DNA of 64,000 nucleotides, from contig NZ_FNJW01000008.1 in assembly GCF_900102725.1 (NCBI RefSeq), positions 2,082,501-2,146,500 on the forward strand, given 5' to 3'. Positions 54,807 through 63,473 of the stretch are shown in pieces. Below the pieces are notes generated by a model. The model ran no database searches. It saw only the letters and a program-made list of their open reading frames with translations, and was not told the DNA's origin. A program made the translations under genes and the position numbers. Position 1 is the first letter of the stretch. Each line of letters begins with the position of its first letter. Source of the DNA: Carnobacterium viridans. Its GTDB lineage: Bacteria; Bacillota; Bacilli; Lactobacillales; Carnobacteriaceae.

Positions 54807-54916
54807 ATTTCTATTTTATCATTTCAAAGTGGGATAAACAAATAAAACATAGAGAGGATCCGTTTGCTGTTTCATAATTAATTATGAAAGTTAAAAAGAG
54901 ATAGTGTAACTTTTTG

Positions 54917-57852
54917 ATTCTGCTATATTACAAGGTGTGAAGTATCAAAATCTGCAATCGATAAGGAAACATTCGTGCCGAGTTTCCTTATACCAAAAGA
55001 TGTGAGGGTATCAAAATTTGCTAACCAGTCAAAACGGTTACCTAAAGTTTCCTTATACCAAAAGATGTGAGGGTATCAAAATGCACCTATAACCTGGGGA
55101 AAGGGAATAAATGTTTCCTTATACCAAAAGATGTGAGGGTATCAAAATCTGTTTCAATTAGCTGATAGACAATCTCCGGTTTCCTTATACCAAAAGATGT
55201 GAGGGTATCAAAATTGAAGTAGATGACCTGTTAATAACTGAATAGGTTTCCTTATACCAAAAGATGTGAGGGTATCAAAATAACGTAAGCGATTGGTTAT
55301 TTTTTGACCGAGTTTCCTTATACCAAAAGATGTGAGGGTATCAAAATAAGTATAAAATTGATTATTAGTGCAATTGGTTTCCTTATACCAAAAGATGTGA
55401 GGGTATCAAAATAACGTAAGCGATTGGTTATTTTTTGACCGAGTTTCCTTATACCAAAAGATGTGAGGGTATCAAAATAAGTATAAAATTGATTATTAGT
55501 GCAATTGGTTTCCTTATACCAAAAGATGTGAGGGTATCAAAATCTTCATCCGATACTGTAACATAAGCTGTTTGTTTCCTTATACCAAAAGATGTGAGGG
55601 TATCAAAATAACCAGTGTATTTAGACTTCATGGCATCTAGTTTCCTTATACCAAAAGATGTGAGGGTATCAAAATTTAATTAATCGTTCTATTTCATTTT
55701 CTGATGTTTCCTTATACCAAAAGATGTGAGGGTATCAAAATCATACTCAACGCTGTCTGGGCCTTTCTTAAGTTTCCTTATACCAAAAGATGTGAGGGTA
55801 TCAAAATCGATTTGTATATAAACGAATATCGTAATTAGTTTCCTTATACCAAAAGATGTGAGGGTATCAAAATGCCCTAATCTAAAGCCCCCAATACCTG
55901 AGAGTTTCCTTATACCAAAAGATGTGAGGGTATCAAAATAACCTCTTGCTTTTCGGTTGGACTGACTTTGTTTCCTTATACCAAAAGATGTGAGGGTATC
56001 AAAATAACGGCTGTCAATTCGGTTACAGTTGTTTCGTTTCCTTATACCAAAAGATGTGAGGGTATCAAAATCTGAATGTGAAAATGATTTATAAAAGAAT
56101 GGTTTCCTTATACCAAAAGATGTGGGGGTATCAAAATTGTTGAGTTAGATCCTGCATTAAACAAATCGTTTCCTTATACCAAAAGATGTGAGGGTATCAA
56201 AATCCTAGAATGAATCTCTAATTCTGAATTTTGGTTTCCTTATACCAAAAGATGTGAGGGTATCAAAATCTTCTTTAGTATTCATTGTGATTGATTCTTG
56301 TTTCCTTATACCAAAAGATGTGAGGGTATCAAAATTTGTGGTAGGTTCTTTCTTGAATTGATCGTGTTTCCTTATACCAAAAGATGTGAGGGTATCAAAA
56401 TTCTGGTCCTAACTGGTGTTATCAAATGTAGTTTCCTTATACCAAAAGATGTGAGGGTATCAAAATATGATGAAATGGTTGTGTAACGTCCGATTTGTTT
56501 CCTTATACCAAAAGATGTGAGGGTATCAAAATCTTCATAACGATAGTTTGAACCAATTTTAAGTTTCCTTATACCAAAAGATGTGAGGGTATCAAAATTT
56601 CAACTTTCCATAAGCCATCAGTGTCCAAGGTTTCCTTATACCAAAAGATGTGAGGGTATCAAAATAAGAACTACTGTTTCTACTGGGTTGTGTATGTTTC
56701 CTTATACCAAAAGATGTGAGGGTATCAAAATACGTGTATAGGTCTCCATTATCGGGTACGAGTTTCCTTATACCAAAAGATGTGAGGGTATCAAAATAAT
56801 TGTGCCCCAGTTTTTCTAGGATTCTCAGTTTCCTTATACCAAAAGATGTGAGGGTATCAAAATATGAGGCAAAAAACGCTGGTGACACCCCATGTTTCCT
56901 TATACCAAAAGATGTGAGGGTATCAAAATTTCTTCTTCTTGTTCTAAAATCATTACTTGGTTTCCTTATACCAAAAGATGTGAGGGTATCAAAATCAAGC
57001 GATTGGGTGGGCATTGATGTTAGAGGTTTCCTTATACCAAAAGATGTGAGGGTATCAAAATATAGTCGTCCAGATAATTCTGAAAGTGTAAGTTTCCTTA
57101 TATCAAAAGATGTGAGGGTATCAAAATCTCATTGACATTTAAAATAACTGCGTATTTGTTTCCTTATACCAAAAGATGTGAGGGTATCAAAATCTAACAA
57201 ATGGTTGTACTTGTGGTTTATTTGTTTCCTTATACCAAAAGATGTGAGGGTATCAAAATGTCAAACCAGACCGAGATTATAAAAGGCGGGTTTCCTTATA
57301 CCAAAAGATGTGAGGGTATCAAAATTGAATTCTTTTGCGTTAATTTGTTTCTCAAGTTTCCTTATACCAAAAGATGTGAGGGTATCAAAATATGGTCAAT
57401 ATAATGTAAGTACTGGAATAAGTTTCCTTATACCAAAAGATGTGAGGGTATCAAAATTTAATAGATTGTAATCTCTTTCTCCTTTATGTTTCCTTATACC
57501 AAAAGATGTGAGGGTATCAAAATTTAATAGATTGTAATCTCTTTCTCCTTTATGTTTCCTTATACCAAAAGATGTGAGGGTATCAAAATATGGTCAATAT
57601 AATGTAAGTACTGGAATAAGTTTCCTTATACCAAAAGATGTGAGGGTATCAAAATTTCCATATAAAACTATTAAAGTATCTATCGTTTCCTTATACCAAA
57701 AGATGTGAGGGTATCAAAATCTCCTTAAAAGTGTTATCTGATTACTTAATGTTTCCTTATACCAAAAGATGTGAGGGTATCAAAATCGACCAACAAGAAG
57801 ATTATACAGAATTATTGTTTCCTTATACCAAAAGATGTGAGGGTATCAAAAT
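54917..57852 (-). CRISPR. CRISPR array: 44 repeats plus one degenerate terminal repeat
   Basis: The 36-bp repeat begins GTTTCCTTATACC and ends GGGTATCAAAAT on the + strand (first full copy 54982-55017, last 57817-57852). In crRNA direction (minus strand) it reads ATTTTGATACCCTC...ATAAGGAAAC. Spacers are 29-31 nt, mostly 30. There are 44 spacers. The copy at 54917-54951 is degenerate and marks the leader-distal end, so the leader side is next to csn2. Repeats at 56102 and 57092 differ by one base. Spacers C and D repeat as C-D-C-D (55282-55507), and A and B as A-B-B-A (57392-57619). Pairing with the tracrRNA anti-repeat fixes the orientation. Confidence 0.98.
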
Positions 57853-57861
57853 GTCATTTTC

Positions 57862-57891
57862 ATTATACCTTACTTTGAATGATATTATCAA
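57862..57891 (-). promoter_or_regulatory. Array promoter inside the 3' end of csn2
   Basis: On the minus strand TTGATA (57886-57891), 18 bp, TATAAT (57862-57867). The start site would be near 57855, within 3 bp of the first repeat (57852). The stretch also mimics the repeat: ATTTTGATA and GGTATAA occur in the same order. There is no separate leader. Confidence 0.7.
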
Positions 57892-58825
57892 AATAAGATG
57901 CTAAGTTTAGTGGAATACCTGTTAAATCAACGATCAAAGTAGTATCTGTTAAGATAAAAAGAGAATAAAGATAAGTAAACGCTTCTAAGTTATCCACAGT
58001 TTTCAAGTTTAAAAGAACCGTTTTAGTTTGATAGTTATCCACAAGCTTCATATACCAATTGCAAGCAGCCAAAAACTGTTCATCAGACCATGAAAAAGGT
58101 AAACCAGAAGCTAATTTTTCTTTAACTTTGTAACAATCCAATACATTTCGAATAGTTCCTTTGTATAGAACATTTATAGAACCATTAAAATGTTGTTCAG
58201 TTATAACAAGGTATTTTATTCCATTCTTTATCTCACTAAGATAGGAATCCAATTTTTCTAATTCATAACTCAATAAAAAATTTTCAGGAGAGATAATACA
58301 GATAATACGTTGTTTACTAGCAAGATCTGATTCTAAAAGATTTAATTGAAAAATTAGCTTATCAAAGTTAGAAAGTTTTAAATAGTTATTTTTTGAAAAG
58401 GTTAACTCATTACTGATCCATTTTTTATCAAAAGGCTCCAATTTAAAACTAATGATTTTAGATGAATTCTGTTGGTTTAAAAAATCAACTTCATCCACTA
58501 ACTCATCCCAACTGTCAACTAACCCTTTATAAAATGGGGAAAATTCAAGTTGATTCAAGAAAGTTTTTTTAAGCTGAGCTACGACCTTATCTAAAGCTGC
58601 AGAATCAAAATGTTTATTTGGAGAAAAAATAATAAACTCAAAATCATTACGAGGTAAAAGTGTTTGATCTTGATATATTTTAAGTGCAGTACCTTTATGG
58701 CTAAAATAATTTTGAAAAGAATCAATCAATTGCTGCCAAAGTAACTGATTTCCCTTTAAAATGGTTACATCATCTATTAAAATAGTAGAAGTTTGAGTGG
58801 TTTCTTGAATATGCCATTCTTTCAT
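57863..58825 (-). CDS. csn2: Csn2, long (Csn2-St) type
   Basis: Csn2 is the adaptation protein specific to type II-A, forming rings on double-stranded DNA ends. At 320 residues this is the long form seen with S. thermophilus CRISPR1-like systems, against about 220 for the short form. I find no simple motif beyond alternating helices and strands, so the call rests on the position, length and neighbours. The start ATG overlaps the cas2 stop by 4 bp (ATGA), implying coupling. The stop codon is 10 bp from the first CRISPR repeat, and the array promoter lies in its last codons. Confidence 0.85.
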   Translation of the reverse strand: MKEWHIQETTQTSTILIDDVTILKGNQLLWQQLIDSFQNYFSHKGTALKIYQDQTLLPRNDFEFIIFSPNKHFDSAALDKVVAQLKKTFLNQLEFSPFYKGLVDSWDELVDEVDFLNQQNSSKIISFKLEPFDKKWISNELTFSKNNYLKLSNFDKLIFQLNLLESDLASKQRIICIISPENFLLSYELEKLDSYLSEIKNGIKYLVITEQHFNGSINVLYKGTIRNVLDCYKVKEKLASGLPFSWSDEQFLAACNWYMKLVDNYQTKTVLLNLKTVDNLEAFTYLYSLFILTDTTLIVDLTGIPLNLASYFDNIIQSKV

Positions 58826-59151
58826 AGAATCACCATTGGATCATCAGTTAATGCTTGTTCAGTTATCGTCTTGTCACCTACAAGCATAAACATATTGGTG
58901 TATTGTTTTTCAGTTACCGCCATGGCACGAATGGAGCCATTTTTTGGAAGATTATTTCTTAGACCCATCATATAGGTATCCAGACTTGAACGATTTGGAA
59001 ATATCTTTGCATAAACGGAGAATTGGACCATTGTAAAGCCATTATTAATCAAGTATTTTCTAAATCTAGAATAAGTCTTACGTTCACTTTTTGTGTTCAT
59101 TGGCAAATCAAAAAATAAAATCAACCGCATAAATCTATAAGGAGATGCCAT
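58822..59151 (-). CDS. cas2: Cas2
   Basis: The 109-residue protein starts MASPYRFMRLILFFDLPMN, the Cas2 beta-strand with the conserved Asp, and has KYLINNGFTMVQFSVYAKIF, matching the St1 Cas2 pattern. It pairs with Cas1 for spacer integration. The start ATG 59151 overlaps the cas1 end by 17 bp; the next ATG (59130) is a candidate too, but the S. thermophilus protein also has residues before MRL. There is no good ribosome binding site for either, suggesting coupling. Confidence 0.92.
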   Translation of the reverse strand: MASPYRFMRLILFFDLPMNTKSERKTYSRFRKYLINNGFTMVQFSVYAKIFPNRSSLDTYMMGLRNNLPKNGSIRAMAVTEKQYTNMFMLVGDKTITEQALTDDPMVIL

Positions 59152-60037
59152 TGGCAGGGTAGACCAATAGATCTGGGTTATTTTCGTTCATCCCTTTAAT
59201 GAATGATTGAATAAGTATTTCTATTGCATTTAGAATAGTTTGTTTTTGATTGCCAATCAATATTTTGTTATTGCTAATTAAATGAACGATTTTTTGTTTT
59301 GTTTTTAGATCCAGATAAGTATCCTCGTTGCACATAACACTCACCCATAGATCAATAATTGGACGGAAAGGTTCAATCAAATCATCGGCTAAATTAAAAG
59401 CATTGTATTGATTATGATGACCGATTCCAAATGAAGGCTGAAGGCCATAAGCAACGATCGTTCTGGCAACTGTTGAACGCAAAACGATATAGCCGTAGTT
59501 TAAACCAGAATTGATTCCATCAAAACTATCTCGGTCACGAATAAATGAACTGCCAAATAATGTTTTAAAATAAAGCTTAGCTGCATGACCCTCACGATTT
59601 GTTTCATCTGAGAAGCCAACTTCTTGTGATAGGTACTGGAGCATTTGAATAGAATCAGGTTCCTTCTTTAAATGTTCAAGAACAGAGGCTTGATTATTGA
59701 TTTTTATCTGGATAATTTTTTGCCACATAGTTCCTTTTGTTTGTTCATTCCACTGAACTTGTCTTTCTAAAACTCTTGATGATTGGTGATGGCTATGAGG
59801 AGAGAGGGCATAGATATTTGGTAAATGTTTTTCATCACAAAAAATTAATAAAATATGATATTCGGCTAATTTATTCAACAATCTTGCCGTTACAACTGTT
59901 TGTTGATTATCAACAATAATAGTATGTATATCAGAAAGCGGTATTAAAATTTCAGTTTCTTCTCGAACGACTTTTAAATTATCTAAATACAATTTTAAAT
60001 AGTCGGATTTTTCAATGTAAACAACACGCCAACTCAT
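59135..60037 (-). CDS. cas1: Cas1 integrase
   Basis: The 300-residue Cas1 catalyses spacer integration with Cas2. Its metal-binding region includes EGHAAKLYFKTLFG (Glu near 145), GIGHHNQYNAFNLADDLIEPFRP with His near 204 and Asp/Glu near 215. The N-terminus MSWRVVYIEKSDYLKLYLDNLKV is typical of type II-A. The start ATG 60037 has GGGGTG 6 nt upstream; an earlier reading frame would overlap the tracrRNA and is rejected. It lies directly downstream of the tracrRNA gene. Confidence 0.95.
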   Translation of the reverse strand: MSWRVVYIEKSDYLKLYLDNLKVVREETEILIPLSDIHTIIVDNQQTVVTARLLNKLAEYHILLIFCDEKHLPNIYALSPHSHHQSSRVLERQVQWNEQTKGTMWQKIIQIKINNQASVLEHLKKEPDSIQMLQYLSQEVGFSDETNREGHAAKLYFKTLFGSSFIRDRDSFDGINSGLNYGYIVLRSTVARTIVAYGLQPSFGIGHHNQYNAFNLADDLIEPFRPIIDLWVSVMCNEDTYLDLKTKQKIVHLISNNKILIGNQKQTILNAIEILIQSFIKGMNENNPDLLVYPANGISL

Positions 60038-60065: not shown

Positions 60066-60163
60066 TACAAAAAAAGCCCCATAAATGGGGCGATTTCGGC
60101 ATAAAGCCTTATTTTGATAGGTCCTCACGACCCTTTAGTATAAGGAAGTCTTCCGTCGAAGAC
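60066..60163 (-). ncRNA. tracrRNA
   Basis: Transcribed on the minus strand in the cas9-cas1 gap. The anti-repeat (60111-60149) pairs with the crRNA repeat at both ends: ATTTTGATA (repeat) with TATCAAAAT, and TATAAGGAA with TTCCTTATA, with an internal mismatched region. Then follow the nexus AAGGCTTTATGCCGAAATC, close to that of S. thermophilus CRISPR1, and a terminator hairpin GCCCCATTTATGGGGC with seven T (60069-60090). The predicted RNA is about 98 nt. Confidence 0.93.
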
Positions 60164-60169
60164 ACTATC

Positions 60170-60198
60170 ATTATAACAAGACTTATATATTTTGTAAA
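60170..60198 (-). promoter_or_regulatory. tracrRNA promoter overlapping the cas9 stop
   Basis: -35 TTTACA (60193-60198), 17 bp and extended -10 TGTTATAAT with the -10 at 60170-60175. The -35 lies within the last codons of cas9. Transcription should start near 60163. Confidence 0.8.
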
Positions 60199-63100
60199 CC
60201 CTTTATTGAGGAGTTTTTGGTAATAGATTGTTCATTAAGAAAAGGAGTGAAAACTTCTTTTTTAACTGGATACTGATTGCCAAGAACATCCACATGTACC
60301 TTAGTTAAGTTAGCTAGAGGTCCAAGAGTTGGTAGCTGTCTTTTTATAGTTTTAAGTTCAAGATCTTCAACTTCAATCATATTTTGTCTAGGATTATTAT
60401 CTCCTCTAAACAATTTATCATATTTTACTAATTTATTATTACTTTTTTCAGTAACAGAATCTTTAATCTTTTCAACTTTATCATAAGAAATCATATCATT
60501 CTTGTACAAACTAAACTGAAACTCATAGCTCTCATCAATTTGCTTATAGGGAGCGTTTCTTCCATCTTTTCCATTATACAGACTCATGTCCAATGTATAA
60601 ACTCCATCAACTTTTCTAAACCAATTATATGGAACACCAAGATACTTATATTTACCTCCATCATTCATATAAATATCTACACGAATACTTTTTCTGCTCA
60701 ATAGAACGACATTATTTTTCTTGCTATTGTACTTGTCTGTAATATCTACATGAATCCCTAGTTTGCTATCTAAAAATTTCAAACTCTTTACTGGAACTTT
60801 ACCATCTTTAAGAATGTATCCGTGCTCTTTATAAAAATCTTGGAAAGGATTGTCTGCATGGCTATGAGCATTCATAACATTCAACAGCAGACTCCATGTT
60901 TTGGGATCATGCTGAGCCATTAAGAAATTGTCAGGATTGGCATCAATTTTTTTCTTTAATCCGTCGAATCCCTTTTTATCCAATTGATAAATGTTTTTGA
61001 CTTTCCCCACTACATACTTCTCGTTATCTTTCTCACGGGTAGAGTAGAGTGTCTGATTTGACATCGTCCGGTTTGGTTTACGGTCGACTTTATGTGAGTA
61101 CTTGATTCTGTCTTCGTAGTTTCTTAATTGGCTGATAAACTTCAATGATTTATTATCAAATAATTGACCTTCTTCTAAAATTTCACCTGTATCTGTGTCG
61201 ACTGCAAGACCCTCTGTGCTAAAAGAAGTGTTTTTCAATTGCTTAAACAATGGCATCCGACCAATAGCAGCAACAATCAAAGCATCGATAGCATGATGAT
61301 GGTGTCCGTCATCTCTAACTTTTCTTAGTTTTGTGCGTCTGCGCAATGCTGCTGTAAAACTGCCACGAATAGACAATACTTGTGTAGGAATAGCATTGTT
61401 TTGGTAAAAAGTACGAAGCGAACTGGAGAAGCTTCTCATTGCATACTGTGTATCAACCAAGTTTCGGTTAATAAAGTCTTTTTGAATCTCTTCATCATGT
61501 TGGACATCCCGTTGTTCTAGAAGGTAACCCAATTTTTTATTACTGATTCTACGAGATTTAAATAAATTCAGACAATCCAATTTGTATTCTTCAAACGAGC
61601 GGCTTGCTTTCCCACTTTGGAAATATTGCCATGGAGTCAATTGTCCTTTAAGTTGATTTTCTTTATGGTAAACCAGTACTTTGTTTTGTTGGCTGTCATC
61701 AAAAGAATAGGAAAGAGGAATAATATGATCAATTTCGAATTTTGTAAAATCATAAACAATATCAGATATTGCGATGTGTTTTCCAGAATAAGCACATTTT
61801 CCATCTTGGGCATCCCATAATTTAAGAGCCATGTGTTTGTTCCCATTCAAACGTAGATCCTTTAAGTTTTTAACTTCTAACAAATCACATATTTTCTTTT
61901 CAAATTTCCCTTGATTTCTTTGAGCATCATTATATTTTGTTCTTTCATCTTCACTGTTCTTTTCCCGTGCCATTTCAACTACAACATAATCCAGTTCACC
62001 ATATTGTTTACGGACAGCATTTGTTACTTTTATCGCTTCACGATGGGCACGTTTAGCAACAGTGCTTAAAATCGCTTCATCGTCAAATTGGATTTTAGTT
62101 CCAGACTGCAATTTTTCCATGCGGCTTTTACCTAAGCCGTGTTCAGTAAATAATTGCATTTGATTTTTGCTCGTTTCCCATAGTTCTGGCAAAATCAATT
62201 GAATCGCTTTTTTGGATAAAGCGTGGTATTCCTTGAAAGCAGTATCATTTAATAATGCCTCTGTAATTTCTTTTAGGTCATCTTGATAAGCAGTGTTGAA
62301 AACGTCGGTGAGCTGTTCTTTACGGCGAATTAAGCTTTTTTCTGCTGTCAATATTTCAGCGATGTCATCCAGTACATCAGTGTTGTCAAAGAATCCTTCA
62401 GGAACGGAAACAGATTCTAGTAATTTTAATAATTTTTTAAATCCAATAAAATCAGTAAAAATGGGTTTGTTTGTTTTTAAATCAATTCGAGCACCTTTAA
62501 TGTCATCTGGGTTAGACACGTCAAGATACTTAGCAATAATATTTAAAGTGACTCTTTTTCCTTTTTTAATAAAATTATTGATTAGGTACTGTTTATCTTT
62601 CATTGAAAGGTGATCCATTTTTCCGGTCTCTGAACTTGGGTATTGGATATTGTTTAAATCATTTAATACATTATATAAATCGGCAGTATAAGACATCTTA
62701 GCAATTCTTGGTTCATCTGGAAGATACGTGCAACGGCCACGCATTTTATTGATCATGGTTTCGTGTTTTAATGTCCCGTCGGCTCCTATAAAATATTGTC
62801 CAAATGGAGTAGGGGATTTTTTAGATCCTGGTCCATCATAATACATCCGGCGACTAGTGATTAAACTTAAATAGCATTCTTTAAATTTTTCAGTGATCTC
62901 AGGATAGACTTCTTGTTGTTTCTCTAGGATAACAGTAGCTTCTTTTACATAGTCGGATGTTTTAAAACGATTGGTGTGATCACGAATGACTTCACCATTA
63001 TGTAATTTTTCTAATTGAATTTCACAAATAAATTTATCTTTTAATTTTTCACCATTTCTCTTCAATTGTTCTTTGGTAGATAATTCATTGCCGCTTGTCT

Positions 63101-63473
63101 TTTCCTCTTCCAAAGGTGTATCTAAAGTTGTCCCTCTGCGTTTCACCAAGTGATATAAAGCTGCAGCCAATTCTTCTTTAGAAACAGACTCATAAATTGC
63201 ATTATAACGAGCTTCATACGGATTAATAGGTTGGATATCGATAGTTGAAAATCCACTTTCTTCCAATAAATCCTTTGTTCGATCCAAACGATGCTTGCGT
63301 CTTCTTTTTAATCGTCGTGAACTTCTAAATGAGCGTCTGTCCTCATTAGCGTTTCTAGTGGCTTCTTCAAATAAACGGACACCAGCATCTTTAATATCAC
63401 CAGTTTCTTCATCAATGATTCCCCAACCGACACTAGAAATACCAATATCCAAACCTAAAATTAACTTTGTCAT
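60183..63473 (-). CDS. cas9: Cas9 endonuclease, small type II-A (S. thermophilus CRISPR1-like)
   Basis: The 1096-residue protein is the crRNA-guided nuclease. RuvC-I is LGLDIGISSVGWG with Asp9; an arginine-rich bridge helix follows (about 45-70). RuvC-II is VVVEMARE with Glu500, HNH is FEIDHIIPLSYSFDDSQQNKVL with His583 and Asn597, and RuvC-III is HHHHAIDALI with Asp730. The C-terminal KVHVDVLGNQYPV motif also fits the CRISPR1 branch. All nuclease residues are present, so it should be active. The ATG 63473 has AAGGAGG 7 nt upstream. The PAM cannot be deduced from the sequence. Confidence 0.97.
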   Translation of the reverse strand: MTKLILGLDIGISSVGWGIIDEETGDIKDAGVRLFEEATRNANEDRRSFRSSRRLKRRRKHRLDRTKDLLEESGFSTIDIQPINPYEARYNAIYESVSKEELAAALYHLVKRRGTTLDTPLEEEKTSGNELSTKEQLKRNGEKLKDKFICEIQLEKLHNGEVIRDHTNRFKTSDYVKEATVILEKQQEVYPEITEKFKECYLSLITSRRMYYDGPGSKKSPTPFGQYFIGADGTLKHETMINKMRGRCTYLPDEPRIAKMSYTADLYNVLNDLNNIQYPSSETGKMDHLSMKDKQYLINNFIKKGKRVTLNIIAKYLDVSNPDDIKGARIDLKTNKPIFTDFIGFKKLLKLLESVSVPEGFFDNTDVLDDIAEILTAEKSLIRRKEQLTDVFNTAYQDDLKEITEALLNDTAFKEYHALSKKAIQLILPELWETSKNQMQLFTEHGLGKSRMEKLQSGTKIQFDDEAILSTVAKRAHREAIKVTNAVRKQYGELDYVVVEMAREKNSEDERTKYNDAQRNQGKFEKKICDLLEVKNLKDLRLNGNKHMALKLWDAQDGKCAYSGKHIAISDIVYDFTKFEIDHIIPLSYSFDDSQQNKVLVYHKENQLKGQLTPWQYFQSGKASRSFEEYKLDCLNLFKSRRISNKKLGYLLEQRDVQHDEEIQKDFINRNLVDTQYAMRSFSSSLRTFYQNNAIPTQVLSIRGSFTAALRRRTKLRKVRDDGHHHHAIDALIVAAIGRMPLFKQLKNTSFSTEGLAVDTDTGEILEEGQLFDNKSLKFISQLRNYEDRIKYSHKVDRKPNRTMSNQTLYSTREKDNEKYVVGKVKNIYQLDKKGFDGLKKKIDANPDNFLMAQHDPKTWSLLLNVMNAHSHADNPFQDFYKEHGYILKDGKVPVKSLKFLDSKLGIHVDITDKYNSKKNNVVLLSRKSIRVDIYMNDGGKYKYLGVPYNWFRKVDGVYTLDMSLYNGKDGRNAPYKQIDESYEFQFSLYKNDMISYDKVEKIKDSVTEKSNNKLVKYDKLFRGDNNPRQNMIEVEDLELKTIKRQLPTLGPLANLTKVHVDVLGNQYPVKKEVFTPFLNEQSITKNSSIKGLQNI

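Follow-up and report, generated by a model that had tools for sequence, protein, structure and literature searches.

A type II-A CRISPR-Cas locus in Carnobacterium viridans

The window, by which we mean the whole 64,000-nucleotide stretch analyzed here (contig NZ_FNJW01000008.1 of Carnobacterium viridans, positions 2,082,501 to 2,146,500), contains a complete type II-A CRISPR-Cas locus. All of its parts lie on the minus strand, in the order cas9, tracrRNA region, cas1, cas2, csn2, and array. The product of cas9 (60183..63473) has 1096 amino acids and matches TIGR01865 with 655.6 bits, whilst the type II cas1 (59135..60037) matches TIGR03639 with 314.8 bits and cas2 (58822..59151) matches TIGR01573 with 74.4 bits, all three above the respective cut-off. 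The long-form csn2 (57863..58825) encodes 320 amino acids; residues 1-320 are covered by the PADLOC Csn2 model PDLC02128 (E 1.9e-116), and an NCBIfam profile search with the same product gave no match. With cas9, a type II cas1, and cas2 in one cluster and csn2 beside them, the locus belongs to type II-A.

The tracrRNA region (60066..60165) was recognized by inverted repeats that it forms with the array. We placed its boundaries by eye, as well as those of an anti-repeat at about 60147-60107 (inverted repeats I6-I17 and I22-I24) and of a terminator-like stem at about 60091-60076; judged in the same way, the anti-repeat tracks the changes of the repeat across relatives. The tracrRNA promoter overlaps the end of a gene, as does the promoter-like element at the csn2 end described below: its TTTACA (60198-60193) lies within the last cas9 codons and its TATAAT (60175-60170) directly past the cas9 stop codon. 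A hairpin upstream of the anti-repeat (60148-60198 region) is kept in 11 loci, the window and 10 relatives, with compensating changes (GTCTTCGACGGAAGAC, GTCCTCGACGGAGGAC) and with different letters in Listeria costaricensis (L033).

The CRISPR array (54982..57852) comprises 44 intact 36-nt repeats, of which 42 are identical and two differ by one change; they are separated by 43 spacers of 29-31 nt. One more spacer and then a degenerate terminal repeat (54916..54951, as read by eye) follow, and this degenerate repeat at the far end suggests that the csn2 side is the leader end. Spacers 4-7 (57356-57655) have the order A-B-B-A and spacers 36-39 (55246-55543) the order A-B-A-B, which we regard as signs of recombination or duplication.

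Between the csn2 stop codon (TAA, 57865-57863) and the first repeat ATTTTGATACCCTCACATCTTTTGGTATAAGGAAAC (57817..57852) there are only 10 bp, as a preliminary description of the region had noted; we call this sequence, TGAAAATGAC (57853..57862), the remnant leader. The same description had proposed a promoter firing into the first repeat. The match is indeed present, with a TATAAT (57862..57867) that overlaps the stop codon and, 18 bp away, a -35-like TTGATA (57886..57891) within the Tyr-Phe-Asp-Asn codons of csn2. It scores 11/12, but taken alone it does not go beyond chance, since a promoter scan of this csn2 end gave two promoter-like sites against 3.0 in shuffled sequences. The case for a promoter therefore rests on comparison across relatives.

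Loci compared

A Csn2 profile search detected this Csn2 in three of 18 genomes of the family and 13 of 395 genomes of the order, the window's own genome being counted in both, and a Cas1 alignment search of the genome collection gave 45 named loci. The window's clade includes Pisciglobus halotolerans, Atopococcus tabaci, several Alkalibacterium, Lacticigenium naphthae, and Listeria costaricensis. With flanking sequence there were 13 clade loci, the window among them; the csn2 end is masked in one (the G063 locus, L018/L030, with its named copy L159), which was left out of all junction counts, leaving 12 readable loci. A type II cas1 was present in 143 genomes, from which we took 100 loci outside the clade. 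Where no array was detected the locus was left out (10 of these 100 and 11 of the 45 named loci), and so were the masked L153 and L158. We grouped the remainder as Bacillaceae, Erysipelotrichales-type, St1-type (the Streptococcus thermophilus CRISPR1 kind), Sp-type (the S. pyogenes kind), and other loci; those labelled 'other short' mix short-Csn2 and other type II kinds.

Further searches left the group unchanged. Csn2 searches in viral contigs and plasmids gave no match, a second Csn2 model (PDLC01598) returned only already-known members from the same order sample, and genus searches around two relatives yielded no further clade member. A class-wide test outside the order, for which 20 of 26 listed loci were fetched (the rest being partial or at a contig end), placed one locus in the group; its Cas1 is identical to a known one (L216 = L177), and it is therefore no independent addition.

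In Cas1 trees, from which most Sp-type rows and, in one tree, also 15 long or distant rows were left out, the clade and the Bacillaceae form one group (support 99 and 100) and the clade alone reaches 92 and 96. Support for adding the Erysipelotrichales group is 85 or 55, and a 114-row tree, which has long branches, does not recover this grouping; the link to Erysipelotrichales is therefore weak. Because the deep branches are unstable, the trees do not distinguish one origin of the features described below from several.

The csn2 stop codon lies inside a -10 element in every readable clade locus

We compared csn2 3' ends and repeats across relatives, as the preliminary description had suggested, and found the csn2 stop codon inside TATAAT in all 12 readable clade loci, window included (L027, L031, and L033, whose arrays are masked, are counted here). 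A csn2 gene with such an end but without an adjacent array was not found among them: the repeat begins 10 bp downstream of the stop codon, or 9 bp in Listeria costaricensis. In ten divergent clade csn2 genes the last codon, the stop codon, and the next base spell TATAAT without exception, the last codon always ending in A (GTA or TTA), the stop codon always being TAA, and the next base always T. Given codon use, this choice of last codon has a chance of 1.7e-6 if the genes are independent, which they are only partly. All ten genes also have TTG at 18 bp from the TATAAT, a match that is compatible with the protein sequence as well. Closer to the array, T(-4) and G(-3) before the repeat are nearly invariant in 30 loci. 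The junction logo was drawn without the near-copies L028, L172, L175, and L194 and the outlier L192.

The -10 element keeps its distance from the first repeat where csn2 does not

In the sister loci csn2 ends further from the repeat, at 16-36 bp in Bacillaceae and 26-60 bp in Erysipelotrichales-type loci. We scanned each locus for the best extended -10 as a function of distance from the first repeat, using -10 weights that are our own approximations; the three clade loci with masked arrays and seven named 'dup' loci, which come from the same genomes as G loci, were left out. The best -10 lay at 9 bp in nine of nine loci of the window's clade, in five of eight Bacillaceae (with one more at 10 bp), and in 14 of 18 Erysipelotrichales-type loci (with two more at 10 bp). 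None of 20 St1-type, 54 Sp-type, and 16 other loci had it at 9 or 10 bp; it was found 31-43 bp from the repeat in several St1-type loci and was spread in Sp-type loci, mostly over 77-125 bp. Many Bacillaceae and Erysipelotrichales-type junctions carry the extended form TGnTATAAT, and Compostibacillus (L160) has no -10 at the junction. The position of the -10 is thus conserved, like its overlap with the stop codon within the clade, and it stays put even where csn2 ends 16-60 bp away. Because this position is mostly constant while the csn2 end varies, the promoter appears to be tied to the leader-repeat junction and not to csn2.

What differs in the window's clade is the gene. Past a shared Tyr-Phe column, Csn2 has eight residues in all eight full-length clade rows versus 3-5 in seven of seven Bacillaceae rows (L162, with a broken csn2 frame, was left out of this alignment). 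The earlier suggestion that an ancestral leader was absorbed into the gene gains support from this, since the Bacillaceae -10 is mostly at the same distance but intergenic, whilst clade Csn2 proteins carry about four extra C-terminal residues, whose codons run into the -10. In the simplest history, whose direction we infer, csn2 would have been extended by about four codons and some ten bases lost, shortening the gap and bringing the stop codon into the -10.

A TATAAT close to the first repeat is also found outside the window's group, in one family, at 10 bp in L206 and L207 (near-copies) and at 12 bp in L200. Three of the four array-bearing loci of this family have it at 10-12 bp and L209 has none there; in L201-L203 no array was detected. 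A junction promoter may therefore be wider than the window's group, possibly including SaCas9-like systems, or may have arisen more than once.

Leader-repeat pairing

Liao et al. reportedly described, in 2022, a leader-repeat hairpin in type II-A systems of the S. pyogenes kind. The first repeat of type II-A arrays, having no spacer before it, would give rise to an extraneous crRNA with leader sequence as guide, and leaders are reported to block this by forming a hairpin with that repeat (PMC12080349, PMC13187072). Lactobacilli produce such a leader RNA, whose guide consists of 20 nt of leader sequence (PMC6070500).

We measured the pairing of the 100 nt upstream with the first repeat as a z score against shuffled sequences. 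Sp-type loci showed strong pairing, with a mean z of -2.60 and 41 of 54 loci below -2. In the window's clade the mean z was -0.10 and none of nine loci fell below -2, the window itself having z +0.4; neither the window nor its clade has a leader-repeat hairpin by this test. Bacillaceae (mean z -0.66, one of eight below -2) and Erysipelotrichales-type loci (mean z -0.18, two of 18) behaved similarly, so that pairing was seen in 3 of 35 junction-promoter loci together. This absence is not unique to them, as St1-type loci likewise pair little (4 of 20 below -2; other loci, 4 of 15). Long leaders thus show a strong hairpin signal, and none is seen where the promoter sits at the junction, which fits a hairpin made unnecessary by a transcript that would start at the repeat.

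Erysipelotrichales-type loci (L169-L194) have a structure of a different kind, in which inverted-repeat arms (TCAAA.../...TTTGAG) flank the junction -10 within the 30 bp that precede the first repeat. The arms co-vary across species (TCAAAAGT/ACTTTTGA, TCAAAACT/AGTTTTGA, TCAAAAATAT/ATATTTTTGA), and only one of 300 permutations of the arms gave better pairing than the loci's own arms (15 loci, three of them without arms; L175, L194, and L192 left out). In read-through RNA the arms perhaps fold into a hairpin and so lock up an extraneous crRNA's guide.

Readings of the junction element

Taking these comparisons together, we consider it probable that the csn2 3' end and the following 10 bp form a junction promoter for the array that would give a nearly leaderless pre-crRNA. 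The reading that competes best, though we think it unlikely, is that TATAAT-N9 serves chiefly the Cas1-Cas2(-Csn2) integrase, as an extended site on the DNA that anchors the leader. Transcription of the array would then be supplied by read-through out of the cas operon or by a promoter within csn2. The bases adjoining the repeat (TGRC or TGAG) show high conservation and lie at the place known to be recognized by the integrase (PMC6895254). However, St1-type loci share the end ATTTGAG without a TATAAT at 9 bp, the conserved bases are those of the extended -10 seen in many Bacillaceae and Erysipelotrichales-type loci, and these loci have no other -10 at a common position. The junction -10 could nevertheless be partly an integration signal.

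It is less probable still that every repeat is a promoter in the manner of type II-C arrays, the csn2 end being one more copy. The window's repeat does contain TTGATA-16-TGGTATAAG, and TGn or CGn followed by TAnnnn occupies repeat positions 23-31 in nearly all relatives, reading TGCTAGAAT in several Erysipelotrichales-type repeats. But the hexamer of clade array repeats never ends in T (TATAAG, TATAAC, TATAAA, TATTAC, TAAGAA, and, in Listeria costaricensis, TATTAA), whereas that of the csn2 end is always TATAAT. With TATAAG in the window's own repeat and the T at position 6 absent from all clade array repeats, we disfavor a promoter in each repeat.

The preliminary description had also called the csn2 end repeat-like and considered that it was built from a fossil repeat. 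The words ATTTTGATA and GGTATAA do occur in the same order in the window's csn2 end and its repeat, but this order requires a 2-bp gap, and in ungapped matching of the repeat against the 60 bp upstream 33 of 300 shuffles did as well or better. The shared ATTTTGATA, the -35 part of the match, is a coding run of Tyr-Phe-Asp codons that the repeats of relatives do not share, and the TATAAT of the csn2 end remains unchanged where the repeat hexamer is TAAGAA, TATTAC, or TATTAA. Two of 16 tested loci did exceed shuffles (L026, 4/300; L161, 9/300), which does not make it a pattern that the loci share. A fossil repeat is therefore not supported for the window, and we regard this origin as very improbable. 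Coding constraint or chance, for which one could cite the promoter scan of the window alone, deserves almost no credence, because the position is fixed both in divergent genes and in loci whose site is non-coding. At the level of sequence, the comparison confirms the junction as a real feature, neither chance nor fossil repeat.

A model for a leaderless pre-crRNA

If the junction promoter is active, a sigma-A-type RNA polymerase would use the TTGATA and TATAAT at the csn2 end. The -10 ends 9 bp short of the repeat, which puts the expected transcription start about 3 nt ahead of the repeat, at about position 57855 in the window (a G; range 57853-57857). The RNA would begin GAC-AUUUUGAUACCC, making a pre-crRNA practically without leader RNA. 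The same few bases would be the leader-end site for spacer integration, each new spacer entering downstream of an unchanged promoter. In S. thermophilus a 10 bp leader is enough to guide integration (PMC6895254), and 10 bp is the length left in the window.

From such a transcript the first repeat, which has no upstream spacer, could not yield a full extraneous crRNA, because no 20-nt guide would be transcribed. With no guide, a leader-repeat hairpin would not be needed, which we propose as the advantage of the arrangement. Promoter activity, the start site, and the effect on extraneous crRNA are all predictions. More tentatively than the promoter itself, we suggest that there may be a type II-A lineage in Bacilli without leader RNA, in which some 16 bp accommodate the promoter, the integration site, and, in the clade, also the stop codon of csn2, and pre-crRNA starts from the first repeat; this would be a further route against extraneous crRNA, besides hairpins and mutated or insulated first repeats.

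The fate of first-repeat RNA in CRISPR arrays is an active question, and a natural type II-A lineage without leader RNA, if it exists, would directly test whether the hairpin serves against extraneous crRNA or for the ranking of spacers. The model makes a sharp prediction, a 5' end within a few nucleotides of the first repeat; it would have promoter, integration site, and coding sequence packed into about 16 bp, and it would offer compact arrays for engineering. Should the promoter reading be wrong, a strongly conserved 15-bp junction element would still have to be explained.

Comparison with known systems

The preliminary description took type II-A leaders to be usually about 100 bp or longer, which holds for Sp-type loci (mostly 85-150 bp) but is not general: leaders measure 54-72 bp in one St1-type set, 16-40 bp in another, and 19-32 bp in lactobacilli-type loci, and a short distance between csn2 and the array is in itself common among Lactobacillales. 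St1-type loci resemble the window in the order cas1-cas2-csn2-array, the long Csn2, the array beside csn2, and a related repeat (GTTTTTGTACTCTC versus ATTTTGGTACTCTC). However, in those with 54-72 bp gaps the -10 is mostly 31-43 bp from the repeat and the leader ends in ATTTGAG, whereas the window has its -10 at 9 bp, a TGRC end, and a repeat starting with A. Systems of the S. pyogenes kind share the pathway and the problem of an extra first repeat; their leaders pair with that repeat, whilst junction-promoter loci are predicted to make almost no leader RNA. Type II-C arrays with repeat promoters are likewise transcribed from at or near a repeat boundary (PMC12080349), but the window would have a single promoter, placed at the integration end ahead of the first repeat, and clade repeats lack the final T of the -10.

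Van Orden et al. 2017 distinguished three leader ends (ATTTGAG, CTRCGAG, and CG), all next to repeats that begin with G (PMC5382924). Like those groups, the window's clade has a leader end that is short, conserved, and in step with the Cas1 lineage; unlike them, it has TGRC before an A-starting repeat. With TGAAAATGAC beside ATTTTGATA, and a clade consensus of TGgC/ATTTTGg, the window falls outside their Groups 1-3, in which the end adjoins a GTTT repeat. In the text of that paper the word promoter appears once, in the introduction. Feussner et al. 2025 discarded leaders under 30 nt (PMC12080349), and the tightest junctions would consequently be missing from that survey. A full-text literature search, mostly of papers outside subscription, returned neither a description of a junction promoter nor one of an overlap between csn2 and an array promoter.

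A different element is shared by the long-Csn2 loci L125, L128, L134, L137, L146, and L147, which have 17-30 bp between csn2 and the array: the sequence AGACGTC, located within the 3' end of csn2 some 50-95 bp ahead of the repeat, which may reflect a DNA signal or a protein constraint.

In two clade members the first repeat is damaged: that of Pisciglobus (L024) lacks its first six bases and that of L025 carries an 8-bp duplication of TTTTGGTA. Spacer uptake may have ceased in both arrays. Most clade repeats hold TTTTGGTA or TTTGGTA twice, 18 bp apart.
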